From IMG/VR virus record IMGVR_UViG_3300008116_000114, positions 1 to 37,496 of that record: DNA of 37,496 nt; one strand, given 5' to 3'. The notes beneath the pieces are model-generated. The model did not search any database and was not told where the DNA came from. It was given only the letters and a program-made list of their open reading frames with translations. Positions within the stretch are counted from its first letter, which is position 1. Each line of letters begins with the position of its first letter. The translations under genes were made by a program, and so were the position numbers. This DNA comes from a virus. Below, one piece after another: positions 3,015-36,593 of this stretch.

Positions 3015-3154
3015 GCAAGATCCCCGGTCGCCACCAGCGCCGCGGCGATCAGCGCATCAGGCACGGTGACGCCGGACTTGACCAGGTCGAGGATGCGGTG
3101 GCCCTGGGCGGCGCTCATCGTGGCGCCTGGTAGCCAGCGGTTGCTGCGCATCAT
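3011..3154 (-). CDS. Small 47-aa helical protein
   Basis: The frame starts at tandem ATG codons at 3154 and 3151, overlaps the upstream gene as ATGA, and ends in a GTGA overlap with the next gene. The C-terminal part (ILDLVKSGVTVPDALIAAAL) is an amphipathic helical segment of the kind seen in many short phage proteins. An internal ATG at residue 13 is an alternative start. It fills what would otherwise be a 136-base gap in a perfectly coupled gene chain, which supports it being real. The function is unknown. Confidence 0.7.
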   Translation of the reverse strand: MMRSNRWLPGATMSAAQGHRILDLVKSGVTVPDALIAAALVATGDLA

Positions 3155-3552
3155 TCCTCGGCCTCGAACTTCTGACGCAGGCCCAGCTTTCCACGCAGCG
3201 CAGCCAGCGCCTCCATGCCGCGACGCTTAGCCTCCGGGTTGATCTTCACGTTGGGATCGTAGGCGATGGCCTGCTCACCCTGCCTGGGCACGGCCGGGCC
3301 CTTGTTGCACGAGTCGCGGAAGGCGATCGCGCTCGGCGGGAAGTCTGGGTGCATGGCACGCAGCGCGTAGTCCAAGCTGGGGCGGTAGGTCAGGAACCTG
3401 CCGAGCTGGTCGCGCCAGACCCCGCGCACCAGGCCGGGATCGACGCCGTCCCAGTTGCGGGTGAAGGCGGTGCCGTAAACGGCGGCCATGTAGCCGAAGA
3501 TGTAGTCGAGGCCCTCGTCCTCGGTGCAGTGATCAGCGGATGAGCTTGACAT
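3151..3552 (-). CDS. Hypothetical 133-aa protein next to the replication initiator, possible helicase loader
   Basis: It starts at the ATG at 3552 with a strong GGGAGG site, overlapping the end of the DUF1376 gene by 20 nt. The core (YIFGYMAAVYGTAF, NWDGVDP, VRGVWRDQLGRF, MHPDFPPSAIAFRDSC) is a compact helical domain common in beta- and gammaproteobacterial phages, directly downstream of replication-initiator genes. By position it could play the role of lambda P, loading host DnaB, but I see no motif that proves this. The last third is basic and helical (EAKRRGMEALAALRGKLG). The function is inferred from context only. Confidence 0.8.
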   Translation of the reverse strand: MSSSSADHCTEDEGLDYIFGYMAAVYGTAFTRNWDGVDPGLVRGVWRDQLGRFLTYRPSLDYALRAMHPDFPPSAIAFRDSCNKGPAVPRQGEQAIAYDPNVKINPEAKRRGMEALAALRGKLGLRQKFEAEE

Positions 3553-4282
3553 TGTTGCCTCCCATGATGCCCCGCGTGAGGCCTTGCAAAACGGTGCGGT
3601 TTGCCTCGCCCTGGCGCGTCATGCTGGACCCCTGCTGGTCGCGCACCCATTCCGCCTTGAAGCCAGTCCACCCGCGTGCGCAGCAGTGCTCCAGCGCCTG
3701 CTCCAGGCTGAGCCCGGCTTTCTCGCATTCACGCTGGATCCCAGCCAGCGCAGCCTCGGTGACCGGCGCTTTCTTGGCCCGGCGCAGCGTGAGGAAGCTC
3801 TCCCAGACCTGGTCGGTGACGTCAGCCGGCTTGTCGGTGGTGGCCTTCTTTTTCCCTACTGCGATAGCAGTAGAGGAATGGTGTCTGGTGTCTGGTGTCT
3901 GGTGAGCATTGCCTTCGCTATGCGTTCGCATTGCGTCCGCATTGCCATCGGTATGCTCGGGCTCACGATTCCACCGTGCGTCCGCACTGCGCTTGGCCTT
4001 CGTTCGCTTGTCCTGGTAGCGCGAGATTTCCTCGTCGCACCGCTTGTTGTGCCAGCCGTCATCGGCCAGCACAAAGAACTCTTTCAGGACCACGGCTACG
4101 GCCTCGCGCTCCTCGCGCGTGCGCGCGCCCACGAGCCGCTGCACCGCGGCAATGTTGGCCGGCAGCGGTCGCTCGTCAGCGTAGTATTTGCGGATGCACC
4201 GGCTGTAGGCGGCGTCCTCGACGAACGAGAGATGCGCGGTCGCCTGCGCATAGTCGCCGAGGTGGTGCTCGTAGTAGTTCAA
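3533..4282 (-). CDS. DUF1376-type phage replication initiator
   Basis: The protein opens with the typical DUF1376 sequence NYYEHHLGDYAQATAHLSF and continues through IRKYYADERPLP, VGARTREEREAV and EFFVLADDGWHNKRCDEE; this domain covers about residues 1-95. A hydrophilic linker (about 95-150) carries the DNA repeats described separately. A second helical domain follows (about 155-225, with VWESFLTLRRAKKAPVTEAAL and WTGFKAEW). I prefer the TTG at 4282, giving MNYYEHH, because GGGGA lies 6 nt upstream; a TTG at 4288 is possible but has poor spacing. The layout matches lambda O: N-terminal origin binding, C-terminal partner binding. That role is inferred from domain content, context and the internal repeats. 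Confidence 0.85.
   Translation of the reverse strand: MNYYEHHLGDYAQATAHLSFVEDAAYSRCIRKYYADERPLPANIAAVQRLVGARTREEREAVAVVLKEFFVLADDGWHNKRCDEEISRYQDKRTKAKRSADARWNREPEHTDGNADAMRTHSEGNAHQTPDTRHHSSTAIAVGKKKATTDKPADVTDQVWESFLTLRRAKKAPVTEAALAGIQRECEKAGLSLEQALEHCCARGWTGFKAEWVRDQQGSSMTRQGEANRTVLQGLTRGIMGGNNVKLIR
3856..3960. other. Candidate replication origin: iterons, 7-bp repeats and hairpin inside the initiator gene
   Basis: Five consecutive 11-bp units begin at 3906, 3917, 3928, 3939 and 3950. On the minus strand units 1-4 share a core close to GCAATGC, while the fifth is degenerate. A further diverged copy lies near 3984. Next to them are three perfect copies of ggtgtct (3880-3900) and a perfect 7-bp inverted repeat, ctactgc/gcagtag, with a 4-nt loop (3856-3873), bordered by a T-rich tract at 3848-3853. 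Because 11 and 7 are not multiples of 3, the repeats do not encode repeated amino acids, so DNA-level selection is likely. Iterons plus a palindrome inside the initiator gene is the lambda origin plan. Confidence 0.65.
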
Positions 4283-4287
4283 GATCA

Positions 4288-4433
4288 ATCCCCATCGGTG
4301 GACGGCCCCAGTGTGAGAATTACCGGGGGCGCTCCACCATTGCGGTGGTGATACGGCATCTGAGGCCGTCCCCGATGGAGACTGGTCTGCGATGCCCCTT
4401 TTGCGCTTCTCACGGCGCGTTGAGCATTCTCAC
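4288..4433 (-). other. Structured non-coding segment between ssb and the initiator gene
   Basis: About 145 bases without a convincing gene separate ssb from the initiator, in an operon where almost every other junction overlaps. A long imperfect inverted repeat pairs 4291-4307 with 4364-4378 (ggccgtcc and cgatgg on one arm and their complements on the other, one base unpaired). Inside it a smaller hairpin has ccacc/ggtgg arms near 4334-4348. A further 8-bp pair, gtgagaat (4313-4320) and attctcac (4426-4433), could form an alternative structure. On the leftward transcript a short frame (ATG at 4359, 24 aa, stop 4285-4287; or a GTG further upstream, 42 aa) ends 2 nt before the TTG start. It could be an attenuator, a translational control RNA or an immunity-type RNA; which one is not decidable here. 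Confidence 0.5.
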
Positions 4434-4823
4434 TCAGAACGGCAAATCATCGTCCATATCCTGCAGCCGCGGTGGGGCTTTCCTGGACGGGGCCGGGGCA
4501 GGGGCCGGCGCGCTGGCCTCGCCCTTCGGCGGCAGCTCCACCTGGTCGACCGTCAGCCGCAGCTTGGTCTTGGTGCTCCCGTCCTTGGCCTGGAACTCCT
4601 CCTGCGCCAGGCGCCCGCTGACGGTCAGCTTCTGCCCCTTGGCGATGTAGGCGGCCAGGCTCGTGCCGCGCTTGCCCCAGAGGTTGCAGTCCAGCCACAT
4701 GGTCGCCGGCCTGTCGCGCGTGCCGGTGTCAACGGCCAGCGGCCAGGACAGCACCGGCTCGGCGCCGGCCTGACGCGACTCGGGTTCGCGGCCGACTCGG
4801 CCGGTGAAGACGCAGAGGTTCAT
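4434..4823 (-). CDS. ssb: Single-stranded DNA-binding protein
   Basis: A 129-aa OB-fold SSB. The N-terminus (MNLCVFTGRVGREPE), the central WLDCNLWGKRGTSLAAYIAKG and KLTVSGRLAQEEF are the family pattern over residues 1-100. An Ala/Pro-rich linker follows, then the acidic tip DMDDDLPF, the conserved tail by which SSB recruits host replication and repair proteins. The ATG at 4823 overlaps the upstream stop as ATGA; a longer in-frame version has no family similarity. It coats ssDNA during replication and supports the exonuclease/annealing pathway of the rightward operon. The full C-terminal tip suggests it engages host proteins directly. Confidence 0.95.
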   Translation of the reverse strand: MNLCVFTGRVGREPESRQAGAEPVLSWPLAVDTGTRDRPATMWLDCNLWGKRGTSLAAYIAKGQKLTVSGRLAQEEFQAKDGSTKTKLRLTVDQVELPPKGEASAPAPAPAPSRKAPPRLQDMDDDLPF

Positions 4824-5326
4824 TCCACAATCCTCCAGTCTTCGGCCAGCATGTCGCTCTGGCTGGCCACCCAGCCTGGCAGCATCGCCCGCCTGCCCGA
4901 AGCATTGACCGTCCACATGTCGATGTGCGGCAGGATCTCGCAGAACTCCAAGCCCAAGGCGTTGGCGTATGGCGTGCCAGGCTTGAGCTGCGCAGCCGGC
5001 GTGCCGGGCACAAGCATCAGCCACATTTCCTTGCCGTTCCAGCCGGCGCGCGAGACGCGGCGACCCTGCTTGAGAGCCTCGATGGCATGGCCGAACGTCA
5101 TGCCCGAGGTTTCGCGGTAGGCGCGCGCGAATACGTCGGCCGGCGACCATGAGATGTAGCCGGCGTGGCGGCTATCGTTTCCTTTGCCGCCGTCGTGGTA
5201 CTCCACAAGGAACCCCTCGTCGGCGCCGTTCTCGTTGGCCGGCAGCTCCCAGCCGCGATAGGCGTTGTATTCCGCGCGCGTCATCGGACTGGCGCTGACC
5301 AGCTTGGTGCCAATGTAGGTTTTCAT
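4820..5326 (-). CDS. DUF2829 / Tad2-like protein (candidate anti-Thoeris) with N-terminal extension
   Basis: Residues about 76-168 match the DUF2829 family: MTFGHAIEALKQGRRVSRAGW, NGKEMWLMLVPG, then FCEILPHIDMWTVNASG and a final GWVASQSDMLAEDW. Tad2 proteins of this family sequester the cyclic ADP-ribose signals of Thoeris defence. The first 72 residues (YIGTKLVSASPMTRAEYNAYRGWELP, LVEYHDGG, HAGYISWSPADVF) form a separate domain common in enterobacterial and Burkholderiales prophages and sometimes fused to DUF2829. It is coupled to ssb by ATGA at 4820-4823. The anti-defence role follows from the family, not from this sequence alone. Some DUF2829 members may have other ligands. Confidence 0.8.
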   Translation of the reverse strand: MKTYIGTKLVSASPMTRAEYNAYRGWELPANENGADEGFLVEYHDGGKGNDSRHAGYISWSPADVFARAYRETSGMTFGHAIEALKQGRRVSRAGWNGKEMWLMLVPGTPAAQLKPGTPYANALGLEFCEILPHIDMWTVNASGRRAMLPGWVASQSDMLAEDWRIVE

Positions 5327-12382: not shown

Positions 12383-14686
12383 TCACAGCCAAGTGAAGGT
12401 ACTGGCGCTTGCACCAACGCCGACAACCTCTGCCAGCAGCGTGACGTTGCCGATGGCGCCGCTTGCGCCTGGGGTCATCGAAACTGTCCACACGCCACCA
12501 GCGTTGGAGATCGAGTAGGTTGGCGTGCTGGTCAAGCCGTTACCGGCCTGCGTGGTGTTCACAATGGACGAGTTGCTGTAGTAGCTGCCGTCTTGGTGGA
12601 AGGTGAACACCACTTCCTGATAGATCGCGCCGTTCTGGAACGAGCTGTCGTTGCCCAGCATCTTCAGCATGACAAAGGCGCTGACGGGGTTGCCCGTCAT
12701 CGAGAAGCTGAAAATGTTGGTCGCGGTTGCGCCGATCGCTTTGGAATACTTCTCTTGGCGCAAACCAGAGGTTTGAGATCGCAGCGCGTATTGATTGCCT
12801 GTGGCGTTTTGCAAAACGTCGATGCCATTTCTCAGCCAAATCGACCCGCCGCCGTAGCCGATGAATGTGTTTCCGTTCGTCGGCCAGGTGCTTCCGTTGT
12901 CAACCAGGGTTGCCCCGTTTTGGATGACAAGGTTGAACGAAGTGCCTGCGGTTTGGAAATTATCAAACTGGCACGAGTTTGCCGTGGTGATGCCGCCGTC
13001 ACTGTAGAAAAGTGCCGTTGTCCCGCTTGACGCGCCGAATACATAATATGACCGACAGGTGTTCAAAGTTATGCGGGAACTGATGTTTGCCAGCGCGCCA
13101 ACCGCAGAGGCAATCTGCACGTTTTCAAAACCGCACCCGTTTAGGGTCAGCCTCGAAAGTTCGAAGTAGTACGCGCAGTTGCTGATGTTGTCAGACCCGC
13201 ACCCGTTCAACACGCTGTAGTCAAGGCCGTACAGCGACCAACCGAAATGACAATCCCGGGCCCAACAGTTGTTGGCGCAGACGCTGGTCCCAGTCACCCC
13301 TCCGGTTCCGTCGTTTGCCCACACAAACCCGTAGGTTGTGCTAGCCCAGCCGTAGTTGTTTCCGTTCAAGCCTCGCTGCGTGTTTGCATTGCAAATCACG
13401 CGCGTCATTTCAATCATCCACGCATCGTGGCAATACACGCCGTAGCGGCACTGGAACACCGTGACGTCTTCCAGTTTCCATTGCGACATGCGTGGCGCAT
13501 AGATTCCGTAGTCAACAATATAGCCGTCGCTATACAGCGTCAGCCCACTGATGACGCAATCGTAGTTGTAGTCGTTGTTGGGGTGGCGGCAGATAATGAT
13601 GCAGTTCTTGACGTAGGAGTCAGTCACTGCGCCGCCGCGCGCCGTATTGCTCCCAACCCCGGATGTGGTTGTGGTTTTCTTGATGACGACGTTGGACTTG
13701 CCGGATCCAAACAGAACCGCCTCGCTGTCCAAATAAAGGGGCGAGGTTGTCTTGTAAGTTCCGTCTGGCAGATAGACGCTGTTGCCAGTGTTCAGCGCGG
13801 CCTGGATTGCTGCGGTGTCGTCTGCAACGCCATCTCCAACAGCGCCGAAGTCTTTGACACTCACGGTTTCGCGCATCTTGTCTTGCGCCGTGCGAATAAC
13901 CGCGCCCGTTCCGGCTTGCAAGAACGAACTGGCAGCCGAGTCCGTCGTGCCCTGCGGCAGCGCCTGGGCGTAGCGCACCAGCATCTGCACGCCATTGGGC
14001 ACCGCCGAGGTGGTGGTCAACGTCGTGCCGCTCGACCAAAGGTAGTCCACCCCGGGGAGTTGCGTCACGCCGCCAATGCTGACGTCAAGGTTGGCCAGCG
14101 CGCCAGGGTTGGCCGCCAGCGTCCAGGTGGTCTGCACGCCGTTGCCGGTGAACGTCTGGGCGTAGGTGGTGCCGGCCGAAACGATGGTGGCCAGCGTCTG
14201 CGGCGTGACGTTTTGCAGCCCGGTGGCCGTCGAGTTCCAGCCGATCACGTTGTTTGCCGCAGGGCTGGGCAGTTGCGTCGAGGCGCCCGAGGTGTCGCCA
14301 TCCGACAGCGTGAAAGAGCGCGCGATCAGATCCTTCAGCCGCTGCGCGATCATGGTCAGCTTGTCCAGCGCGCGCTCGTGCGTCTCGGCCGGGAAAGGGT
14401 CGTTGGGCTGGTAGTCGGTGAGCTGCGTCTCAGCGGGCGCGCGGAAGATCACCAGCGACTCTCCACCAGCCGGCGCCACCGTGCAGGTGACAGAGCCGCC
14501 AGCCGGCACGCCTGCGCCGGTGACGGTGTAGTCCGTGTTCAAAACCAGCGTGGTCTGCACGCCGGCCGAGGTGGTCTTGATGACCGTCAGGTCGGCCGAG
14601 GCCAGGAAGTAGAACGGGACCGAGAAGGTCACCGTGGATCCGTTGCCGGCGTAGGCAACGCGGGAGCTTGTGGTGCTGACGGTCAT
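12383..14686 (-). CDS. Tailspike with pectate-lyase-like beta helix
   Basis: A 767-aa receptor-binding protein. Residues 1-150 resemble the N-terminal anchor domain of T7-type tail fibres (RVAYAGNGSTVTFSVPFYF, PAETQLTDYQPNDPFPAE, ERALDKLTMIAQRLKDLI). Residues 173-244 repeat a similar beta unit (FTGNGVQTTWTLAANPG, then YAQALPQG). VSVKDFGAVGDGVADDTAAI (275-294) is the classic start of a right-handed beta helix, running to about residue 620, with many Asn/Cys/Tyr turns. The last 120 residues may be a trimerisation or binding tip. It probably binds or cleaves surface polysaccharide. The coding region for the beta helix (about 12700-13750) looks lower in GC than its neighbours, a sign of module exchange. 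Confidence 0.9.
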   Translation of the reverse strand: MTVSTTSSRVAYAGNGSTVTFSVPFYFLASADLTVIKTTSAGVQTTLVLNTDYTVTGAGVPAGGSVTCTVAPAGGESLVIFRAPAETQLTDYQPNDPFPAETHERALDKLTMIAQRLKDLIARSFTLSDGDTSGASTQLPSPAANNVIGWNSTATGLQNVTPQTLATIVSAGTTYAQTFTGNGVQTTWTLAANPGALANLDVSIGGVTQLPGVDYLWSSGTTLTTTSAVPNGVQMLVRYAQALPQGTTDSAASSFLQAGTGAVIRTAQDKMRETVSVKDFGAVGDGVADDTAAIQAALNTGNSVYLPDGTYKTTSPLYLDSEAVLFGSGKSNVVIKKTTTTSGVGSNTARGGAVTDSYVKNCIIICRHPNNDYNYDCVISGLTLYSDGYIVDYGIYAPRMSQWKLEDVTVFQCRYGVYCHDAWMIEMTRVICNANTQRGLNGNNYGWASTTYGFVWANDGTGGVTGTSVCANNCWARDCHFGWSLYGLDYSVLNGCGSDNISNCAYYFELSRLTLNGCGFENVQIASAVGALANISSRITLNTCRSYYVFGASSGTTALFYSDGGITTANSCQFDNFQTAGTSFNLVIQNGATLVDNGSTWPTNGNTFIGYGGGSIWLRNGIDVLQNATGNQYALRSQTSGLRQEKYSKAIGATATNIFSFSMTGNPVSAFVMLKMLGNDSSFQNGAIYQEVVFTFHQDGSYYSNSSIVNTTQAGNGLTSTPTYSISNAGGVWTVSMTPGASGAIGNVTLLAEVVGVGASASTFTWL

Positions 14687-14710: not shown

Positions 14711-17700
14711 TTATCGTGGCTGCTCGCGCCGGAACAACAGGTCATGCAGCGCCTGTTGCGGTGTTTCCGGGTGCGCCTGGTTGGTCAGGACGTCGGTGAT
14801 GTACTCGCCGGTGATGCGGACCTGTGCGGTCGGCAGGCCGAGCACGTAGCCGCTGGCCTCCAGCGTGTCCCAGGCGACGTCGTCCCACGGCCGCTGGCCC
14901 TGCACCGCCTCGGGGATCCGCATGAAGGTGATCCGCGCCAGCTTGTCCATCGCGCCCACCACGGGCGACAGGCTGAAGGAGGGCGCGAACTTCATCTCGC
15001 CGTTTCCGGCGATGGCGATGAGCCTGGCCTCCAGGTAGCTCGACAGGTCGCGCACCACGGGGATGCTGGCGATCGGGTAGAGCAGGGCCTTGCGGATCGC
15101 CCACCAGATCCCGTCCTCGTCGTCGCCCGGGCCCTTGGCGGCCAGCAGGTCGCCGAGCACGGCCGGCAGGATCACGAGCGCCATCACGCGGGCCACGGCG
15201 CGCGGCATGTCCTCGACCCGGCGCGTGGTGTGCCCCAGGTCGCGCAGCCGCGCGTAGAGCACCGAGAAGGGCGAGTAGTACATGGTCAGCAGGCGCATCA
15301 GCTCGTTGTCGCGCTGAACCGCCGCCAGATCCTTGGTGCCGCCAGCGCCCTGCGACAGGCGCACGGCGCGATCGCCGGCCCGCACCGCGGCCTCCTCGGT
15401 CAGCCCCTCGGCCAGGCCCTGGCGGTAGGCGCCCAGCCAGGTCGGGATGGTCACCTGACGGTCGGCCATGGCGGTCAGGTAGAAAGCCGTCTTGCGCACC
15501 GCGGCCAGCGGGGAGTTGTCGCCCTGCATGCGGCGCAGCGAGTCGCGCACATCGCGCTCGATGGTGTCGGCGCGGAACTTCATCTCGCCCGACTTCTCGT
15601 AGACCATGTTGGTCAGCGTCTCGCGGTGGCTCGACCAGGGCCCGTAGCGGTTGAAGTCCACCAGCGCCTGGGTGAGGTAGCGGGGCTTGACCAGATCCAT
15701 CGACGGCCCGAAGCCGGCGAACTGGGCCATCATGGTGCTGATCTTCCAGCCCATGGTGACGATGGCCATGTTCGTGCGGAACTGCATGATCAGCTTCGCG
15801 GCGCCCGTGGCCTGGTGCAGCGTGTCGGCACGGTCAGCCACCAGCACCTGCACCCACTTGTTGAGCTCGCGGTATTGCTCCTCGCCCACCGTGTCGATCA
15901 GGGCGGCCTTGATCTCGCCGTCCTTGAGGATCTTGTTCAGCGAGTAGATGGCCTCGCGGTGCGAGACGTCCTTGATCACGCGCGTGAGGTGCGAGGTCAG
16001 CACTTGCTCGAAGTCCAGCAGCACCGGCGCCTTCAGCGTCTCGACGCGCTGCTTGGTGTAGCCGCGGTCAGTGCGCGCGCGCCCGTAGGCATTGGCCAGG
16101 AACTGGCCCACCGACTCGGTTGCCTCGGCCTGCTTCTCGCCCACGGCCGACAGGCGCGAGTCGTAGACCAGCGGGAAGTAGCCGCCGGCCACCTCGACGC
16201 CGCCGATGGTCACCGGGGTGGCCTCGACCTTCGGGGGCGCGATGCCGGTGACGCGCTTCTCCAGCGCCACGATCTCGGGCCACAGCGAGTTGACCGTGTC
16301 CCACACGCCTTGCACGAAGCGCGCATCGTCGGCGGTGAGCTCGCCCAACGCTGATGCGATCGCCGCATCATTCCAGCCATAGCCATCGCGCAGGCGCTGC
16401 AGGTTGCTGGCGTTTCCGGTGTTCAGCGCCAGCGACAGCAGGGTGTAGCGGGTCACCGGGCCGTCGATGCCCGGCAGGCTGATGCCGGTCTTGTCGGCCA
16501 TGCTCTCGCGCCACTCCTTGGGCATCGACTCGGCCAGCTCTTGCAGCTTGGCGGTCACCATGGCGTGCAGCTCGTACTCGCGGGTCTGCGCGTCGGCCGC
16601 CTGGTCGAACAGGTAGCGCGCCCAGGGGCCGTCGATCTTGCCGCCGTCCAGCCACTCGACGAGCTGCTCGACCTTGAGGTGCTTGGCGTCAAACCACTTC
16701 CACAGGCGGGCGCCCTTGTCGCGCACCGTCTCGCCCTTGCGGTTGGGCTTGCCGAGCTCGCCGGTAGGCTTGAAGTTGTCGCGCGCAGAGTCGAGGAGCT
16801 CGGTCTTCACGGCGTCGAACTCGATGGCCTCGCGCTTGCGCAGCAGCTTGTTCTTCAGCGTGGCCAAGTGCTCGATGTTCTTGACCGTGTCGCGCACGGC
16901 GCGCAGCTCGTCCACCGTGGCCTCGCGGTAGTTCACCCGGCGCACCTCGTCCAGCAGGGCGTCGGGAATGTTCACCAGCAGGCCCTGGCTCTCCATCTCC
17001 TCGACGAACTCCAGCAGTGACTTGCGCTTGGACAGCGCGGCCATGCTCACGCGCTTGAACTCGTAGCGCTCCAGGATGGCGTCGATTTGGTCGAGGTAGT
17101 CGGCGCCGGCCTTGCCCAGCTTCTCGCGCGTGGCCGCCTTCTGGAAGCGGCCCATGTAGTCGTAGACCTTGTCGATCTCCTGCTTGGCCTTGGTCGCCTC
17201 CAGGTAGAGGTAGTGGTTCATCAGCTCGCGCTGCTTCTCGGTGGCGGCGGCGACGTAGTCCTTCTTGGCGGCGGCCTCATAGGCGGCCTTCGAGGCGCGG
17301 CGCTCGGCCAGCAGGTACTGGTGCGGGTTGATGTCCTTGGCCTGCATCAAGCCGATGCGGCCCGCGGCGGCGGCGCGGAACACGGCCACCGATGGCAGAT
17401 CCAGCGCCGTGCGCCTGGCCTGCTGCTCCTCACGCGACAGCGCGGCCAGCACCGGCTGCACCAGGCTCTGCTGCCGGCGCAGGGCGCGCAGCTCGGCGGC
17501 GATGATCTTGGCTCGCTCCTCGTTGTGGATGGCCTGCATGGCCTCCTCGGCGATGGTGCCGTCCAGCATCATGTCGCCGTACTCGCGCGCCATGCGGGCG
17601 TCCGTCTCGGCCTCGATGAGATCCTTGCGCGGCCGCATGTTGACCAGGGCCTCGACCAGCGCGGTGCCAGACTCGAAACCCAGCGTCTCGGCGGCGACGT

Positions 17701-20700
17701 CCAGCGTGGTGCCACCCTCCGCGGCGTAGATGCGCTGGAACCCGCGCGGCAGGCGCTTGAGGTACTCCTCGCCGTAGCGGCGCACCAGGTCGGCCTTGTC
17801 GAGCTTGATGGGCGTGCCGTCTGGCAGCTTGCCATCGGCCAGCGCCTTGAAGGCGACGTAGACCGGCGTGGCGTCCACCTCGGCCTCGACGTCCAGGCGC
17901 ATCGCGGCGCGCTGCTCCTTCCACCATTTCTCGCGGGCGCGCTGGTACTCGCGCATGAGCTCGCCCTGCAGCTTCTCCTTGGCGGCCTCGCTCGCGGCCT
18001 CCACCGTCTTGCGGTAGGCGGCAAACTCGCCCTCGGTCATGCCAGCCTCGGCCGCGGTGCTGAACAGCGGCGCCGCGTCGAGCTGGCGCTTGGCGGCCTC
18101 AATCTCTTCGTCGGTGGCGTAGATGCGGTCCAGCACGCCGCGCACATCGTCGTTGAGCTGCACGTTCAGCGACTTCATGCTGCGGTAAATTAGCGACAGC
18201 CAGGCGCGGAAGCGCTGGAAGATCCCGCGCAGCTCGGCGCTCGGGGCCTTTCCCTCCATGAGGTAGGCCTCGTTGGCCCGGGCGAACTTCTCATGGTGCT
18301 CGACAGTGATCTCGGCGCGCGACTTGACGCCGAACCAGTCGAGCAGGGTCTGGTAGTCGGCCTTGATCTGCTCGGTCGCGTCGGCGCGCTCGGCCAGGTC
18401 GCCCAGCACCTCCAGCCAGAAGTGCCCGCTCTCGTGCAGGAAGGTCGAGAGGTCTGCCTTCTCCAGCAGGCCGATGGTGAACTTGCGGTCGGCGCCGAAC
18501 TGGATGAAGCCGCGCTTGTCGCCGCTGTCGGCCTGGAAGAGCTTTACGTCGCCTTGGTCGCCGGCGCGCTGCGCATCCCCGCCGAGTACATCTGCACCGG
18601 GTTCTCCGACCGCGGTTTCTCCAGACTGGCGATCTGCGCTTTCAAGCCCTGAACGTATGGGTTGTCCGGTCCAAACTTGGCCTCCAGCTTGGGCAGCTTG
18701 ACCTTCAGGAGTTCCAGTTGCGATGGCATCGATCTTCTCCTGATACTGATGGCTGAACGCCACCTGCGTGTCGTACCAGAACTGGCCGGCAAACGACACG
18801 CCTTCCACTGACGCAGAAACGCGCGCGGCAAGAGCATCGAGCTCGTCCGCTTTCTCTTGCATCCTAGCAGCAAGCGCCGCATCGTCCAACCCATTTAGGC
18901 TGTCCATGCCGTAGCGCTGCTCAAATTCGGGCACATACTGTAGCCGCACGCCAACAGCGGCCGGCATTGCGCCTGACCTTGCGTCAGCCATGCGGCGACC
19001 GTCGACGATGACGGTCAGAAACTCGACGCCTTCTTTGGCCAGGTCGGCCAGCAGCTTCTCCAGTTGCGCCTGCGCGGCCGCACTGCGGAAGTAGATCTCG
19101 ACGCCCGGGCGATGCCGCAGCGGGTCGACCTGCTCGTTTTCGCGCAGCACCCGCGACAGGAAGGTCGAGTCCTGCTTGGCGGCCTGCGCCTGGCGCAGCA
19201 TCTCCAGCCACAGCTTGTTGGCGTCGTAGCCCTCGCGCGCTACCACCTCCAGGTCAAGCGAGCGCTCGACGCCGCCGTAGCGGCCCTCGGTCGACACGGC
19301 CTTCGAGCCCAGCACCATGGCGCCGTTGTCGGCCTCGTAGATGGAGCGTCGGATCGCCTCGGCCAGCCGGGCCATGTCGGCGTTGGCGGGCACAAAATCC
19401 ACGCCCTGCGTGTCCATCGACATCTGGATCGACAGGCCGCCGACAAACCGATCGACCTCACGCTCCAGCGCGGCGAGCTCGGCTTTGGCCGCCACCTTGC
19501 GAGCGTTGAACTCTTCCAGCTTGCCCCTGGCGCGCTCCACTGCGGCCAGCAGCTTGACGGCCTCGGCAGGCGGGCGCACCAGCTTCTGCAGCTCTTCCAT
19601 GCGCTTCCTCGACCCCTTGTAGGGCTCGATCTCGCCGCTGGTCAGCTTGCGCAATTCTTCGATCTCGGCGGCGTATTTGCGCTCGTGCTCCTCGATGGCC
19701 TGGCGCGCGGCGGTCGTGTCCTGCGCAGCGGTCGTGACGTCGGCGCTCGGCGGCGAGGCGTCGATGATGGTGCGCAGCTCCTTCACGCGGGCCTGCTGCG
19801 AGGTGCCGGTGAGGTTGGCCTCCAGCTCAAACGAGCCGCCTTCGCCGGCGGCGTTCGTCCAGTCGTTGACCGTCCACAGCTCCTTCTCGACAAACCACAC
19901 CACAGCCTGCAGGTCGTCGTCGTTGATGTTGGCCAGCGTGCTGTCGGTCTTCAGCTCAGCGTCGTTGCGGATGGCGTCGGCGGCCTTGTTGAACACCTCC
20001 TGGCCAAAGCCGAACTGCAGCGTTGTCGAGGCATCTTGGCGCATCTCGCCAGACACCGTCGACTCTGCCATGCTCGGGATGCGCCGGCCACCGGTCAACC
20101 GCTGCAGCATGCGCGCGGCCCAGACGTCGATGGTGGCGCGCTCGCGGAACCCGATCAGGTTGCCACTGAAGTTGAGCGCCTTTGGCGCGGTGCCGCCGCG
20201 AGCAATGTCGGGGTCGGCGTCTTTGACGATGCGCCACAGGTCGACCATCGCCCTGATGACGTTCTTGCCGTTGAACCCGTACTTGGCGCCGGACTCCTTG
20301 GTCGGCAGCAGGTTCTCGGGGATCTCGCGCGCGGCTCGCACTTCGGCCAGGCGCTGCTCAAATTCCTCCGACGTCAGCAGCGCGCGCTTGCTGTACTTGG
20401 AGGCCTCGTCGCGGATCGCCTTCTTGTCGGCGTTGCGGTTAAGATCCTTCCACCCTTGCTCAGTGCGGATCTCGCCGACCGTCTTGGCTTTTGGCTCGGT
20501 CGTGACCGTGCCGTCCTTTTCCTTGCGAAACCCGGTGGGGTTGTCCTGCTCCTCGGCCAGGCGCCGCGTCTCGTACTCCTTGCGCGCCGCCGCGACTGCA
20601 TCGTCGATCTCGGCCAGGCGCTTTTGGCGATCGGGCTCGGTGGCCTGCTCTTCGGCCGTGAGGCGCGCCAGGTTCTCGTTGACCCACGCGCGCAGGTCCG

Positions 20701-23686
20701 TCTCGGTTGCTTCGACCTTGTCGGCCCACGCCTCCCACTGCGGGATGAGCTCGTCGAAGTCCCCGCGGCTCGCCCGGCGCAGCGCATCGACCGCGTTGAA
20801 CCAGTTGTCGCGCACCGGCGTGTTGGGGCTCGTGGCGCCCAGCAGGTCAGCAAACAGGTCGCCCAGGCCGCCGAACTCCTTGCGCAGCCTCGCGCGCATG
20901 GCCTTGTACCAGCCGGCTTGCGCCAGGATGTTCTGCGCGTTCTTGTCGCCTGCGGCGGCGCGCCGGAACACCTTGCGCACCTCTTCAACCATGGCCTTAG
21001 CGGCGGCATTGGCGCGGCGCGCGTAGTTGGCGCTGCCTGCTTCGAGTTGCTTGCCTTCGGGGTCGGCGCTGAACCCATAGGGCACGTTCTTGTACTGGTG
21101 CTGCGCCTTGCCATCTTCGACGAGCGTGCGAACGTAGACCAGCGGCTCCCAGCCCTGCGCCACAGGGTGCGCCAGCTTATGCGCACGCACCGCCGCCTCG
21201 ATCTCGGACACGGGCAGGCCTGTCGCCTTGGCCGATGCCGCGATTGCCGCGCGCTCTTCGGCGCTGATGATCGAGCGCGAGCCCATCTCGCGCTGGCCGC
21301 GCTCGGCCACCATCTGCAGGCGCTCGACCGCAGCCTGGTCGAACTGCTGCCCATCCTCGCCCGTCTGCTCCGACGCCTTAAGGATCAGCGCCTTCAGCGC
21401 CGCGTTGTCCATGTTGGCGACGTCGCCGCCCATCTGCTCGATGAACTGCGCCAGGGCCGTGAGTTGCTCGCGCAGCGCCGCGGCCTGCTCGTTGCGGAAC
21501 TGCGGGCTGAATTGCCGGTTGCCGGTGACGTCCTCGGCCAGGGCGTCCAGCAGCTCCGTCTCGCCCAGCATCTCGTCGCCGCGCTGCATGAAATAGCCGG
21601 CCTCGACGGCGGCCTCCATGGCGGTGTCCAGGCTCATGCCGTTGGCCTGGGTGATCTTCTTCTGGAAGGCGCGGCGCGAGACGTTCTCGTCCATCGCCTT
21701 CGTCTCGCCCACCGGCTGCAAGCCGCCACGGTCGCGGATGAACTCGAACAGGCTCGGGCCGAAGGCCGCCGCCTCGGTCGGGATGTCGGCCGCGCGCAGC
21801 CGGTCGAGCAGGGGGTCGAGCGCCGTGTCGATGTTGGGCTGCTGCTGCAGGATGTCTGGCAGCGGGGTGACCACGCGCAGGCCGTAGGTGCGGTGCAGCT
21901 CCATCGGGTCGACGCCGGCGCGCTGCGCCAGGGTGGCGATGCTCTTGGCGTAGGTCGTGGCGTAGGCTTCGGCGGTGCTGCGCTCGAAGCGCCCGACCAG
22001 CTCGCCCATCACCTCCTGCTTGAGCTGCTCGATCACCGGCGTGGCCACCTGGCCAGACTCGGCGTCGATCATGGCTTCCAGCTCGGCCTGCAGCTCCTGC
22101 TGGCGCTGCTCCATGGCCTTGGCCTCGCGCATGGTCAGGTCGCCCTGGTGCAGCTTGACGTCCTGCATCAGGCCGGCGTGGTGCTGCGTGGCCGCCAGCT
22201 TCTCGGCGTAGTTCTCCAGCGGGATGACGACGTCGGTGCCGGCGGCCGCCGCTTCGGCGAAGTTGGCCGCGCCCACCTCGGCGGCCACCGCGGCCGGGTC
22301 GACGTTCTGGCTCTGAAAGTAGCGCGCGAACTGGTCGGCCGGGATGTAGACGTTCTCGACCGGGCCGCCCTCGCGCGCCTTCTTCACGAAGTCTCGGAAC
22401 ACCTCGGGCAGGCGCTCGCGCAGCTTGCTGGCCTGAGCCGACTCGCCCAGCGCGGTCATAAAGTCCTGGTTGCGCTGCGCGATCCGCACCTCGCGGATGT
22501 TCATGCCAGCGCGCACGCCGGTGGCAGGTGCGCCCACGCCAGCAGCGCCAGCAGCGCCCTCGGCCGTGGCCTGCAGCACGCGCTCGACGTCGCGCTCGAT
22601 CGGCGTAGCCGGGAACTGCTGCCCGGGCGTAACACCCTGCGCCAGCTCGCGGCCCAGGATGACGGTGATCTCCTGCAGACCCTCGGTCAGTCCCTCGATG
22701 CTCGCGGCCTTCATCCACCTCTTGCCGGCGTCGGCAATGGCGGCGCGGAAGGTGGGGCGCTGCAGCAGGGCCTTGATCGCCTGCTTGGAGCCGCCGGCCA
22801 TCAGCTTGTCCAGGCCTGGCACCAGCTTCAGCAGCGCGAGCTCGCCCACCGTCTCCAGGCCGGCGTTGAGCAGGCCCACCGCAGCGGCGGCGCCCTGCGC
22901 CACATCGCGGGGCATCGGCTTGCCGTTGACGTCCTTTAGCCCCTCGAACTCATCGAAGGCGAAGCCGGCCTCGGTCTTGTAGTTGTAGACCGTGGACATG
23001 GTGATGTATCCGGCCCGCGCGCCCAAGATCGCGCCGCCCGTCGCCGTGACCGGGGCCACCGGCGCCGCCAGGCCGCCGACAGCAGCGCCTGCCGTTGCGC
23101 CAGCCAGCGCGCCAGGCGCGGCCTGCGTCACGCTGGTGACCATCTGCCGGCCGGTGTAGCCGGTGACGTTGAGGAACCACGACAGCGGCGAGTCGCCCTT
23201 CTCGGGAAGCGCGTCCAGCGCCTTCATCTCGTCGGAGAGCTGCTTGCGCCGCGCCTGCTCGGCCGGCGTGATCGTGCCGACCATGGCCTTGTAGTGCAGG
23301 GGCCCGAGGTCTTCCTGCAGCGAGCCCTTGCTGATGCCCTGGCCGAAGGCGGTGAAGGCGCGCTCGATGCGCGTCAGCGTGCCGACGTCGTCGCGCGCCA
23401 CCGCCGCCTGCTCGGTCAGGAAGTTGGCGGTGATCGGGTTGTCGCGCACCATGCGGCCGTAGTCGATGGAGCCGATGGCGGCGCGGCGCTCGGCCTGCGG
23501 CGGGTCCAGGCGCACGCTGTCCAGCGGCACGCCGACCTGCTTGGAGAGCTGCCGCAGCTTCGCCTCGACGTCGGGCTGGGTGTTCACAGCACCGGCCATG
23601 GCGCCCTGCAGCGCCTGCGCCTGGTCGCCCTGGATCAGGGCGCGATAGGGGTCTTCGTCGCGGATCAGCTTCGCGTAGTCGGTCAC
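14711..23686 (-). CDS. Giant 2991-aa ejection protein, polyvalent, with HExxH motif
   Basis: One quarter of the genome. Position after the transglycosylase gene (ATGA overlap at 23683-23686) and size point to a T7 gp16-like ejected core protein. Visible parts: a Gly/Ala-rich hydrophobic region at about 189-228; a domain near 890-1280 with LGDLFADLLGATSPNTPVRD and VIRAMVDLWRIV, of the type seen in phage polyvalent proteins; AEAIRRSIYEADNGAMVLGS near 1450; a zincin-like FLHESGHFWLEV with H1751, E1752 and H1755; long helical stretches; and C-terminal membrane-like segments (VMALVILPAVLGDLLA, about 2835-2850). It is likely injected with the DNA, possibly spanning the envelope and carrying enzymes into the host. 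Domain names and the catalytic role are family-based inference. Confidence 0.88.
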   Translation of the reverse strand: MTDYAKLIRDEDPYRALIQGDQAQALQGAMAGAVNTQPDVEAKLRQLSKQVGVPLDSVRLDPPQAERRAAIGSIDYGRMVRDNPITANFLTEQAAVARDDVGTLTRIERAFTAFGQGISKGSLQEDLGPLHYKAMVGTITPAEQARRKQLSDEMKALDALPEKGDSPLSWFLNVTGYTGRQMVTSVTQAAPGALAGATAGAAVGGLAAPVAPVTATGGAILGARAGYITMSTVYNYKTEAGFAFDEFEGLKDVNGKPMPRDVAQGAAAAVGLLNAGLETVGELALLKLVPGLDKLMAGGSKQAIKALLQRPTFRAAIADAGKRWMKAASIEGLTEGLQEITVILGRELAQGVTPGQQFPATPIERDVERVLQATAEGAAGAAGVGAPATGVRAGMNIREVRIAQRNQDFMTALGESAQASKLRERLPEVFRDFVKKAREGGPVENVYIPADQFARYFQSQNVDPAAVAAEVGAANFAEAAAAGTDVVIPLENYAEKLAATQHHAGLMQDVKLHQGDLTMREAKAMEQRQQELQAELEAMIDAESGQVATPVIEQLKQEVMGELVGRFERSTAEAYATTYAKSIATLAQRAGVDPMELHRTYGLRVVTPLPDILQQQPNIDTALDPLLDRLRAADIPTEAAAFGPSLFEFIRDRGGLQPVGETKAMDENVSRRAFQKKITQANGMSLDTAMEAAVEAGYFMQRGDEMLGETELLDALAEDVTGNRQFSPQFRNEQAAALREQLTALAQFIEQMGGDVANMDNAALKALILKASEQTGEDGQQFDQAAVERLQMVAERGQREMGSRSIISAEERAAIAASAKATGLPVSEIEAAVRAHKLAHPVAQGWEPLVYVRTLVEDGKAQHQYKNVPYGFSADPEGKQLEAGSANYARRANAAAKAMVEEVRKVFRRAAAGDKNAQNILAQAGWYKAMRARLRKEFGGLGDLFADLLGATSPNTPVRDNWFNAVDALRRASRGDFDELIPQWEAWADKVEATETDLRAWVNENLARLTAEEQATEPDRQKRLAEIDDAVAAARKEYETRRLAEEQDNPTGFRKEKDGTVTTEPKAKTVGEIRTEQGWKDLNRNADKKAIRDEASKYSKRALLTSEEFEQRLAEVRAAREIPENLLPTKESGAKYGFNGKNVIRAMVDLWRIVKDADPDIARGGTAPKALNFSGNLIGFRERATIDVWAARMLQRLTGGRRIPSMAESTVSGEMRQDASTTLQFGFGQEVFNKAADAIRNDAELKTDSTLANINDDDLQAVVWFVEKELWTVNDWTNAAGEGGSFELEANLTGTSQQARVKELRTIIDASPPSADVTTAAQDTTAARQAIEEHERKYAAEIEELRKLTSGEIEPYKGSRKRMEELQKLVRPPAEAVKLLAAVERARGKLEEFNARKVAAKAELAALEREVDRFVGGLSIQMSMDTQGVDFVPANADMARLAEAIRRSIYEADNGAMVLGSKAVSTEGRYGGVERSLDLEVVAREGYDANKLWLEMLRQAQAAKQDSTFLSRVLRENEQVDPLRHRPGVEIYFRSAAAQAQLEKLLADLAKEGVEFLTVIVDGRRMADARSGAMPAAVGVRLQYVPEFEQRYGMDSLNGLDDAALAARMQEKADELDALAARVSASVEGVSFAGQFWYDTQVAFSHQYQEKIDAIATGTPEGQAAQAGGQVWTGQPIRSGLESADRQSGETAVGEPGADVLGGDAQRAGDQGDVKLFQADSGDKRGFIQFGADRKFTIGLLEKADLSTFLHESGHFWLEVLGDLAERADATEQIKADYQTLLDWFGVKSRAEITVEHHEKFARANEAYLMEGKAPSAELRGIFQRFRAWLSLIYRSMKSLNVQLNDDVRGVLDRIYATDEEIEAAKRQLDAAPLFSTAAEAGMTEGEFAAYRKTVEAASEAAKEKLQGELMREYQRAREKWWKEQRAAMRLDVEAEVDATPVYVAFKALADGKLPDGTPIKLDKADLVRRYGEEYLKRLPRGFQRIYAAEGGTTLDVAAETLGFESGTALVEALVNMRPRKDLIEAETDARMAREYGDMMLDGTIAEEAMQAIHNEERAKIIAAELRALRRQQSLVQPVLAALSREEQQARRTALDLPSVAVFRAAAAGRIGLMQAKDINPHQYLLAERRASKAAYEAAAKKDYVAAATEKQRELMNHYLYLEATKAKQEIDKVYDYMGRFQKAATREKLGKAGADYLDQIDAILERYEFKRVSMAALSKRKSLLEFVEEMESQGLLVNIPDALLDEVRRVNYREATVDELRAVRDTVKNIEHLATLKNKLLRKREAIEFDAVKTELLDSARDNFKPTGELGKPNRKGETVRDKGARLWKWFDAKHLKVEQLVEWLDGGKIDGPWARYLFDQAADAQTREYELHAMVTAKLQELAESMPKEWRESMADKTGISLPGIDGPVTRYTLLSLALNTGNASNLQRLRDGYGWNDAAIASALGELTADDARFVQGVWDTVNSLWPEIVALEKRVTGIAPPKVEATPVTIGGVEVAGGYFPLVYDSRLSAVGEKQAEATESVGQFLANAYGRARTDRGYTKQRVETLKAPVLLDFEQVLTSHLTRVIKDVSHREAIYSLNKILKDGEIKAALIDTVGEEQYRELNKWVQVLVADRADTLHQATGAAKLIMQFRTNMAIVTMGWKISTMMAQFAGFGPSMDLVKPRYLTQALVDFNRYGPWSSHRETLTNMVYEKSGEMKFRADTIERDVRDSLRRMQGDNSPLAAVRKTAFYLTAMADRQVTIPTWLGAYRQGLAEGLTEEAAVRAGDRAVRLSQGAGGTKDLAAVQRDNELMRLLTMYYSPFSVLYARLRDLGHTTRRVEDMPRAVARVMALVILPAVLGDLLAAKGPGDDEDGIWWAIRKALLYPIASIPVVRDLSSYLEARLIAIAGNGEMKFAPSFSLSPVVGAMDKLARITFMRIPEAVQGQRPWDDVAWDTLEASGYVLGLPTAQVRITGEYITDVLTNQAHPETPQQALHDLLFRREQPR

Positions 23687-34422: not shown

Positions 34423-34723
34423 CGTCGTTCCTTTCGCCCTCTGAGGGCTCGACCAGGTTGAACACTTGCTTCTCGTCAACGTGCAGGTGCGCCATCAGGC
34501 GCATCCACACCTCACGCCGACCCTCGGCCATTGCCATGGCCAGGGGGTCGATCGTCTTGCTCACCGGCGACAGCACCATGGTCGAACCAGTCGCGCGGCA
34601 GAATCGTCGCAAGTCTGCGAGCACAATCTCTGCGCTTGGGTGCAGCCGGCCCTCGGCGTCCATGAAGGTGCGCCGGTAGGCCAGCTTGCGGCGCAGGACT
34701 CGCTGGATCAGCTTGTGGATCAT
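34415..34723 (-). CDS. Bbp19-type head-region protein
   Basis: A 102-aa protein coupled to the portal gene by ATGA at 34720-34723. Its sequence (LIQRVLRRKLAYRRTFMDAE, GRLHPSAEIVLADLRRFCRA, SKTIDPLAMAMAEGRREVWM, RLMAHLHVDEKQVFNLVEP) is that of the Bbp19 family, named after a BPP-1 gene in the same place. The N-terminus is strongly basic. The family is associated with the head module but its role is not established as far as I know. This gene links the phage to the BPP-1-like group. Confidence 0.88.
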   Translation of the reverse strand: MIHKLIQRVLRRKLAYRRTFMDAEGRLHPSAEIVLADLRRFCRATGSTMVLSPVSKTIDPLAMAMAEGRREVWMRLMAHLHVDEKQVFNLVEPSEGERNDDV

Positions 34724-36369
34724 GCGGGGAAGATGGCAGGCGCTTGCTGCGGCGGCGCGGCGCCGGCCAGGCTCTGGGCCTGCGCCAGGTCACGCACGGT
34801 GCGGCCCACCACCGGCGCGGCGGCCAGCAGTTGCTGCGCCTGCGCGGCCTGGGCCTGCGCCTCCTCGATGGCGGCGATCTGCTGCTTGCTGCGCAGCACC
34901 TTGGCCGGCACGCCGTTGATGTCGGCCAGCTCGCGCGCCACCGCCTCGGGGTCGAACAGCATCATCACCTTCGGGTCGATCTGCGCCAGCGGCGTCACCG
35001 CCTCCAGCGTGCGCATGATGGCCACGCCCTCGTCGGCGCGCTGGGCACGGTTCAGCGGCGAGACGTATTCGATTTCCACCGAGCCGCCAGCCTCCAGCAT
35101 CGCGTCTGGCATCGGCGGCAGCGCCCCGGCGTGGCCGAGGATGTCGATCTCGCGCTCGATCAGCGGGCCGAGGAACTCGCTCTGCTGGCGGCCCATGGTC
35201 GGGGCCAGCAGCGCGCCCTTCTCCTGCGCGCGCAGCATGGCCTCGGTGGCCGTCATCTGCGGGCTCTCCACCAGGATCTGGAACAGCGTCACCAGGAAGG
35301 CGTCGTTGATGACGCGGCGGCGCTGCTCCATCATGTCCAGGCCGATGTCCACCCGGGCGTTGGTCTGCAGCGGCTGCACCGTCTGCCGGCCCTGCTCGTC
35401 GACGCCGCCGTAGTTCAGCGCGCCAGGCCGAAGGTCGAAGGCCTGCAGCGCGCCGTCGTCCTGCAGCAGCAGCGGCGGATCGACGATCTTGTGCGCGGCG
35501 CGGATCACCGTCTTGCTCATCTCGTTGAGCATCTTGATGTCGGGCAGCACCGTCATGGCCGGCGATCGCCCGTAGACCTCGCGCGGCCCGGTGACGTAGC
35601 GGCCGATGGCGTAGGGCATGGTGCGGAAGCCGCCCTCGCTCACCAGCTCGCGGCCCTCGATCGAAACGTAGCAGGACGCAAAGGCCATGCCCTTGTAGTC
35701 CTTGCGCCCGTAGTCGGCGTCCTCGCGCGGCATCACCGCATGCACGAAGTCGAAGTTCTGCTCGGGGTTCTTCTCGGCGGCGTCCTTGATCCGCTGCGGG
35801 CACTTGTCGCCAAAGCGCTGCATGGCCTGGCGCGCCGTCATCGGGAAGCGCCGATGCACCGTGTCGACCACGCCCTGGTGGTTCTCGGCAATGTAGAGCT
35901 CGGACAGGTGGACCGTGCGGTAGCGCAGGCCCTGGCCCAGCGTCTCATCGATGAACACGCCACCGGTGCCGAAGGCGCCCAGGCTCATGTAGGCCTCGTT
36001 GGCCTGGCTGGCGAAGTTGGCCCGCGGCGAGTAGCGCGCCGTGAACAGCACCTGCGTCACCTGGTCAAGGTAGGCCTGCACCTCGGGGTCTTCCTGCAGC
36101 CGCTCGTCGGTCACCCGCAGCTTGTGCCAGCGCTGGGTGCGCGGCGTGAGCATCGACTCCATGGCCGCGGCAAAGCGCTCCAGCGCCAGGGTTGCCGTGG
36201 CATCGAACACCTTTTCCGTGCGCTTGTCGCCCGGGTTTCGCACCACGCGGAAGAAGTTGGCCCTCGGCAGGATGCGCTCGGCGATCTCTCGCCAGTGCTG
36301 ATCCCAGATGGCCCGCATGTCGGCCATCCGCTCCTGACGCTGGATGATGTCGAGGGCGCGGCTGTCCAT
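34720..36369 (-). CDS. Portal (head-tail connector) protein
   Basis: A 549-aa T7-type portal. Motifs seen include RMADMRAIWDQHWREIAERI, LPRANFFRVVRNPGDKRTEK, VFDATATLALERFAAAMESM, EAYMSLGAFGTGGVFIDETL, PYAIGRYVTGPREVYGRSPA, LNEMSKTVIRAAHKIVDPPL and, in the C-terminal part, MTATEAMLRAQEKGALLAP. The Ala/Gln-rich C-terminus resembles the barrel region. It forms the 12-fold ring through which DNA is packaged by TerL. I use the ATG at 36369 (GGGAAG upstream); a longer in-frame version would overlap the previous gene fully. Confidence 0.95.
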   Translation of the reverse strand: MDSRALDIIQRQERMADMRAIWDQHWREIAERILPRANFFRVVRNPGDKRTEKVFDATATLALERFAAAMESMLTPRTQRWHKLRVTDERLQEDPEVQAYLDQVTQVLFTARYSPRANFASQANEAYMSLGAFGTGGVFIDETLGQGLRYRTVHLSELYIAENHQGVVDTVHRRFPMTARQAMQRFGDKCPQRIKDAAEKNPEQNFDFVHAVMPREDADYGRKDYKGMAFASCYVSIEGRELVSEGGFRTMPYAIGRYVTGPREVYGRSPAMTVLPDIKMLNEMSKTVIRAAHKIVDPPLLLQDDGALQAFDLRPGALNYGGVDEQGRQTVQPLQTNARVDIGLDMMEQRRRVINDAFLVTLFQILVESPQMTATEAMLRAQEKGALLAPTMGRQQSEFLGPLIEREIDILGHAGALPPMPDAMLEAGGSVEIEYVSPLNRAQRADEGVAIMRTLEAVTPLAQIDPKVMMLFDPEAVARELADINGVPAKVLRSKQQIAAIEEAQAQAAQAQQLLAAAPVVGRTVRDLAQAQSLAGAAPPQQAPAIFPA

Positions 36370-36371
36370 GA

Positions 36372-36593
36372 TCAGCTTCCCAGGAGCTGCTTGGCGCCGC
36401 TCGTCGGCGGTGTCGACAGGTCGCCGCCCACGCCGGTGAGGATGCTGGCGGCGCGGCCGCGGCGGCCGGCCAGGCGGTCCTGCGCCTGCTGTGCCTGGCG
36501 CGCGTTGTCCAGCGTCGGCACCGGCAGCGGGGCAGGGGGCGGCGGGGGCGCAGGGATCTTGGGGCTTGAGAAGATTCCGCTCATGTTGGTCAC
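36372..36593 (-). CDS. Small proline-rich protein between TerL and portal
   Basis: A 73-aa protein with a Pro-rich N-terminus (SSPKIPAPPPPPAPLPVP), a charged helix (LDNARQAQQAQDRLAGRRGR), and the short pattern AASILTGVGGDLSTPPTSGA followed by KQLLG. Proteins ending in a similar ATILTG...GTKQLLG pattern lie between terminase and portal genes in many podoviruses. A GTG at 36593 overlaps the TerL stop as GTGA; the ATG at 36584 is an alternative start. It is probably a minor virion or assembly protein. Confidence 0.82.
   Translation of the reverse strand: MTNMSGIFSSPKIPAPPPPPAPLPVPTLDNARQAQQAQDRLAGRRGRAASILTGVGGDLSTPPTSGAKQLLGS

Follow-up and report, generated by a model that had tools for sequence, protein, structure and literature searches.

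The window analysed here is the whole 37,496-nucleotide stretch of the viral record IMGVR_UViG_3300008116_000114 (IMG/VR), and it carries on its minus strand a gene of the DUF1376 family with tandem repeats and a hairpin inside the coding sequence, between a gene for a single-strand binding protein and a small gene proposed to encode a helicase loader. The features of this locus are as follows.

3151-3552, minus strand: proposed P-like DnaB helicase loader, its start overlapping the end of the initiator gene (family link and fold match)
3533-4288, minus strand: DUF1376 gene, proposed replication initiator, 251 amino acids from the first TTG (Pfam PF07120, 9.7e-30; phrog_678, 5e-19)
3644-3829, minus strand: C-terminal helical domain, lambda-O-like, residues ~154-215 (phrog_678 match; near-invariant columns P154 to W214; pLDDT mostly >85)
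3852-3878, minus strand: hairpin with a 4-nt loop, CTACTGC-TATC-GCAGTAG on the coding strand, flanks TTCC/GGAA (single-stranded DNA folding; C(TNN[CA])G hairpins conserved among relatives)
3879-3904, minus strand: heptamer tract, CACCAGA on the coding strand and A+C rich there, proposed strand-opening region (lag-7 maximum of the window)
3906-3960, minus strand: iteron array of five 11-bp units, core GCAWTGC (direct sequence reading; class word in relatives)
3962-4006, minus strand: basic 'SADARW' segment, residues 95-109, at the end of the long helix (mutual information with the DNA word peaks here)
3984-3990, no strand assigned: possible extra degenerate site GCACTGC, in segment-coding DNA and off the 11-bp register (low confidence)
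4025-4279, minus strand: DUF1376 domain, predicted winged helix, residues 4-88 (AlphaFold2 pLDDT >90 nearly throughout; PDB fold matches at Z 4-6)
4434-4832, minus strand: single-strand binding protein, upstream of the initiator (Pfam SSB, 6.6e-17)

DUF1376 is the sole domain in the Pfam scan of the initiator, in which PF07120 scores 103.2 bits against a gathering score of 30.1 and the Phage_rep_O N-terminal domain is absent. Residues 113-224 match the PHROG annotated as 'replication initiation O-like' (phrog_678), and several PHROGs hit by the DUF1376 part carry the annotation 'primosomal protein'. The AlphaFold2 model (52 sequences, mean pLDDT 82) comprises a winged-helix-like N-terminal domain with a long last helix and a helical C-terminal domain, and residues 121-146, in the linker whose coding sequence contains the repeats, are predicted to be disordered. 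Direct PDB sequence searches found no relative, and comparison of the N-terminal fold with the PDB returned mostly winged-helix proteins, including the ORC2 and DnaD N-terminal domains, at Z 4-6 only, so that the general fold alone is supported. An earlier sequence-only reading had taken this protein for a replication initiator, and the O-like C-terminal match, the predicted winged-helix domain and the replication genes directly downstream support that assignment.

The same reading had the small downstream protein recruit the host helicase. This protein has no direct Pfam or PHROG match of its own, and 6 of 30 members of its family match phrog_109, 'P-like helicase loader' (best 1e-16), while one relative matches PF06992 (E 0.046). 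The two top PDB matches of its structural model are both lambda P bound to DnaB (9oa1) and both weak (probabilities 0.97 and 0.89, rmsd 2.5-2.7 Å, E 0.3-0.5; the best with 2.5 Å over 79 columns, E 0.3). The family links and the fold match favour recruitment by a P-like loader, with delivery of the helicase being inferred. Homologues of this protein sit directly downstream of DUF1376 in many loci, and the gene following DUF1376 in sequenced phages is annotated as a helicase loader (AH02) or an IstB-like ATPase (Vibrio 1.052.A), and elsewhere as a replicative DNA helicase (AB_SZL4) or a 'replisome organizer' (MW202801). On the other side, the single-strand binding protein and the initiator are adjoined by a Tad2-like protein with a Thoeris anti-defence domain (4820-5326, minus strand, 2.7e-24).

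Repeats and hairpin within the DUF1376 gene

The 11-bp units start at 3906, 3917, 3928, 3939 and 3950 (GCATTGCCTTC GCTATGCGTTC GCATTGCGTCC GCATTGCCATC GGTATGCTCGG). On the minus (coding) strand, three of the first four cores are GCAATGC and that of unit 2 is altered (GCATAGC), and the fifth unit is degenerate (GCATACC), as had been claimed. The lag-11 self-similarity of the whole window peaks at 3902-3910, with 24 of 33 matches against a maximum of 22 in 30 Markov simulations, and the lag-7 peak lies at 3879-3880, with 18 of 18 matches against at most 15 in simulations, within about 3.6 copies of a GGTGTCT repeat spanning 3879-3904. Four GCAWTGC-like words (at most one mismatch) in 11-bp register occur in the window only at 3906-3960, compared with a maximum of two in 20 simulations. 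The positions given previously for the 11-bp array, the 7-bp repeats and the palindrome (3856-3873) were borne out by direct reading of the sequence, and the two repeats are the strongest lag-11 and lag-7 signals of the window.

A T-rich tract had also been described. GC content is 53% in the 7-bp tract and 47% at 3841-3855, compared with 64% for the gene, so that a local drop in GC stands, but the tract is 'AT-rich' only relative to a GC-rich gene and is weak. The hairpin, with its core CTACTGC-GATA-GCAGTAG at 3856-3873 and an extended stem at 3852-3878, folds as single-stranded DNA at -9.2 kcal/mol (z = -5.6 relative to dinucleotide shuffles), and an Rfam search of the window gave no matches.

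Conservation of the DNA elements among relatives

Comparison was made with a collection of 225 unique DUF1376 genes, which came from viral and bacterial contigs and included E. coli K-12 ydaU, using as a null model shuffles that preserve the protein and are drawn from the codon usage of each gene. The first set comprised 124 non-redundant linkers (the region after the DUF1376 domain), and the second set 62 independent genes sharing <35% of linker 8-mers with the first. Relatives without 11-bp periodicity at this place would have refuted the earlier reading, and the outcome went in its favour. In the first set, excess self-similarity was present only at lags 7, 14, 21 and 28 (mean z 1.55, 1.49, 1.07 and 0.82) and at lags 11 and 22 (1.69 and 1.15), and the second set repeated it at lags 7 and 14 (1.19 and 1.12) and at lags 11 and 22 (1.50 and 1.06), with a smaller peak at lag 6 and little at 21 and 28. 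The 91 genes with strong heptamer tracts have a median coding-strand A+C fraction of 0.86 in the tract, compared with 0.55 for whole genes. These comparisons suggest that the putative origin layout, with a subtype-specific repeat word, recurs in most of nearly 200 non-redundant phage and bacterial genes; some DUF1376 genes have no recognizable array, and the genes are related, so the counts are not fully independent events.

The hairpin is conserved in form, with stem sequences that vary almost freely among relatives. Hairpins closed by C-G with a 4-nt loop TNN[C/A] and a stem of at least 6 number 25 after the domain, compared with 0.85 expected, and 0 in the domain control. Of 40 non-redundant genes encoding an xPxGV peptide, 35 show complementarity between the two synonymous third positions, compared with 18.8 expected. 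The rule is weaker in the independent set (3 compared with 0.2 expected), some genes of which carry C-rich/G-rich hairpins instead, as judged by eye. Tandem hairpin pairs with loops 15 nt apart and unrelated stems occur in six linkers (L237, L205, L014, L107, L201 and L236).

Association of the repeat word with protein subtype

De novo 7-mer enrichment assigned a class word to each type of segment: GCAWTGC to 'ARW', the type of the window, GTTSAAC to 'AGKAS', and a CCCA..GGT-type, CCCANNGGT-like word to 'GGRP'. Own-class words exceed protein-preserving shuffles in all three classes (ARW 66 compared with 13.4, AGKAS 77 with 11.9, GGRP 47 with 14.9), and GCAWTGC and GTTSAAC are nearly missing from the other main classes. 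The own word is present in 74 of 92 genes, compared with 29 expected with permuted labels, and sorting genes by DNA word alone places 58 of 60 in the matching segment class, the two exceptions being a GAAKRW protein, which likewise ends in RW, and one assigned to 'other'. The classes were defined after the first set had been seen, and the second set is the fair test, dominated by AGKAS; here the own word was found in 5 of 7 ARW, 25 of 29 AGKAS and 1 of 6 GGRP genes, and the GGRP word is, on this sequence comparison, poorly defined. The expected kind of word was also recognized by eye in Acinetobacter phiAC-1, Vibrio 1.052.A, Pseudomonas AH02, Rb1, Mcat18 and IFTN2, six sequenced phages that are also in the pool supplying the second set. 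Another repeated word, GTCACGC, occurs in only 6 of the 18 genes left unclassified, many of which have a segment rich in arginine. Six linkers following an arginine-rich segment (L118, L119, L123, L125, L149 and L152) have the palindrome TGTCACGCGTGACA in common, perhaps representing a further iteron class.

Mutual information with the DNA word peaks at residues 95-109, at up to 1.19 bits, exceeding both the winged helix, whose bins average 0.03-0.22, and the C-terminal domain, and it marks this segment as a candidate determinant of site specificity. The array itself encodes the residues beyond ~113, which are therefore not independent in this association, and the segment physically adjoins the linker array, so that co-inheritance contributes to it. 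Simple linkage of segment and adjacent array is argued against by the presence of the class word in the part of the gene encoding the folded domain, in 21 of 29 AGKAS, 8 of 35 ARW and 6 of 28 GGRP genes, in excess of synonymous shuffles. This second array came to light as an unexpected lag-11 excess over synonymous shuffles in the in-domain control, which is consequently not a clean control, and the orientation of the in-domain words means little because they are near-palindromic. The in-domain array is absent from the window and its own subclass. In L013, L083, L175, L221 and L247 the O-like C-terminal domain is apparently swapped for unrelated domains, with the class word kept in several, and the N-terminal module of DUF1376 proteins looks exchangeable.

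It could be supposed that the repeats are kept for the protein, since relatives repeatedly show the peptides NANAMRTHSEGNA and NQEPITNNHKP. The sequence-only reading had objected that periods that are not multiples of 3 cannot come from protein repeats, and the objection is strengthened by the word giving a different peptide in each of the three reading frames (VQP, RST and PLN from GTTSAAC; GNA, AMR and TQC from GCAWTGC) and by a codon choice that goes beyond synonymous shuffles. Protein-level repeats are refuted as a full explanation by the three-frame reading and the shuffle excess, and we leave them hardly any likelihood. Neutral tandem duplication or slippage without function could likewise generate 7- and 11-bp periods in a disordered linker. 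It predicts neither the variable 4-nt spacers between cores (~0.2-0.8 bits, the core itself being fixed by site selection), nor a class word inside the domain, nor its recurrence in divergent genes that share a protein segment, nor covarying hairpin stems, and it can be given only slight credence.

The distribution of the words along the gene bears on another explanation, in which the DUF1376 protein binds within its own gene as an autoregulator and the hairpin acts in the mRNA, without any origin function. The elements are indeed conserved at the DNA level, a winged helix could be that of a repressor and a short hairpin could act in RNA, but own-word density in the two main classes reaches ~15 per kb in the 300-400-nt bin compared with 0-1.1 in the flanking bins, so that the sites concentrate ~300-400 nt into the gene with almost none upstream, where an operator would be expected. 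The genes that come next encode helicase loaders or helicases, the DUF1376 protein ends in an O-like domain, and an operator is accordingly considered improbable.

A proposed origin and its relation to known systems

What the computational analysis establishes is the DNA elements, their conservation at the level of DNA rather than protein, the way they go with protein subtype, and the assignment of domains and neighbours. Very probably these reflect a theta-type replication origin lodged, lambda-style, within the gene for its own initiator; the binding of the protein, the opening of the strands, the delivery of the helicase and the activity of the origin are all inferences. The DUF1376 protein would bind the 11-bp iterons through its winged-helix domain and the following basic segment, with one nearly palindromic 7-bp site per helical turn, and an O-some-like complex would form on them. 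Strand opening would probably take place in the heptamer tract, one strand of which has A/C where the other has G/T, and the adjoining hairpin may be a conserved structural element of the origin in its opened or cruciform state. Tethered by the disordered linker, the O-like C-terminal domain would then recruit the lambda P-like loader from the next gene, which would bring host DnaB. Counting against an origin are the weak AT-rich region, the lack of a clear GC-skew switch at 3.9 kb in the window, the weakness of the folds (winged helix at Z <6, lambda P at E 0.3), the existence of array-less DUF1376 genes and the degenerate sites of YdaU. An origin of the oriC/DnaA type was rejected, as no DnaA boxes (TTWTNCACA, one mismatch allowed) are present within 8 kb of the element.

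A partition (centromere-like) or incompatibility site is another conceivable reading, and the predicted winged helix also resembles the centromere-binding TubR, AspA and pNOB8 proteins at Z 4.7-4.8. These scores are unspecific, no ParA/TubZ-like gene is annotated beside the DUF1376 gene in sequenced phages, and the O-like C-terminal domain and loader neighbours also speak against a partition function, which appears very unlikely.

Within the origin interpretation, we tentatively propose a DUF1376 recognition code, a possibility worth considering but one that we would not yet expect to hold in full. In such a code, the ~15-residue segment ending the long helix of the winged-helix domain would read a 7-bp near-palindrome, repeated with every helical turn in the codons that directly follow the segment and often again in the domain, and specificity and target would travel as one exchangeable cassette.

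In the iteron plasmids R6K, P1 and RK2, a winged-helix initiator binds direct repeats beside an opening region, with the iterons usually located outside the gene for that initiator. The DUF1376 iterons differ in lying within the initiator gene and in varying with protein subtype.

The likeness to lambda that had been suggested holds for the repeats of iteron type inside the initiator gene. It is only partial for the downstream neighbour, which is P-like by family link and fold without a profile match of its own, and for the AT-rich stretch, which is weak and biased by strand more than by AT content, and the arrays and hairpin depart from those of lambda in detail. In lambda, as in Stx phages, iterons and a strand-opening region lie in the middle of the initiator gene, between the DNA-binding and loader-contact domains, and the helicase-loader gene comes next; the lambda record (NC_001416) places four 18-bp iterons at 20-24 bp spacing within O, between 39034 and 39118, with P after it, and binding of O to its iterons is reported (PMC7466680). 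The present arrangement differs in having DUF1376 in place of Phage_rep_O as the N-terminal domain, 7-bp near-palindromes at 11-bp spacing in place of 18-bp units at 20-24 bp, a tract of A/C-biased 7-bp repeats in place of the AT-rich region, and a small hairpin with a defined loop, as well as an in-domain second array in many DUF1376 relatives. As far as can be judged from sequence alone, it shares the logic of lambda ori, with a protein that is not a Phage_rep_O member.

The Rac prophage, reported to have an active origin oriJ (PMC3945230), encodes the pair YdaU-YdaV, the first of which belongs to the DUF1376 family and has a segment of the AGKAS type. E. coli K-12 ydaU (L081:5120-5977) has degenerate GTTCAA sites in its linker-coding region and one GTTGAAC in the part encoding the domain, and differs in the 33/12/12 spacing of its degenerate sites and in having a 6/12-bp tract and no heptamer tract. 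No placement of oriJ inside ydaU was found in the literature searched, which was accessible only in part; if the interpretation is correct, it predicts that this long-known origin may lie within ydaU. The sequence-only reading was aware of no iterons described for this family, and in agreement with this no report of iterons or an origin in DUF1376 genes was found in the same partly accessible literature, which left subscription papers out of scope and is not proof of novelty.

DUF1376 is a large family of 'unknown function' in phages and prophages, and would, if the proposal is true, gain an initiator function. The replication origin of any phage with a recognizable array could then be read at base resolution from its sequence, and the pairs of segment and word would form a natural specificity set, explaining how origin and initiator remain matched through phage mosaicism.

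Elsewhere on the minus strand of the window, a head-tail adaptor (34720-36708; phrog_332, 2.4e-163) accompanies terminase, capsid and nozzle-like proteins in a podovirus-like virion module. A 2991-aa ORF (14711-23686) encodes a giant polyvalent phage protein whose N-terminus bears LPD22 (large polyvalent protein associated domain) and lies beside an SLT transglycosylase protein, and a pectate-lyase-like (rhamnogalacturonase/epimerase) tail protein (12383-14686) has a weak T7 tail-fibre N-terminal match.
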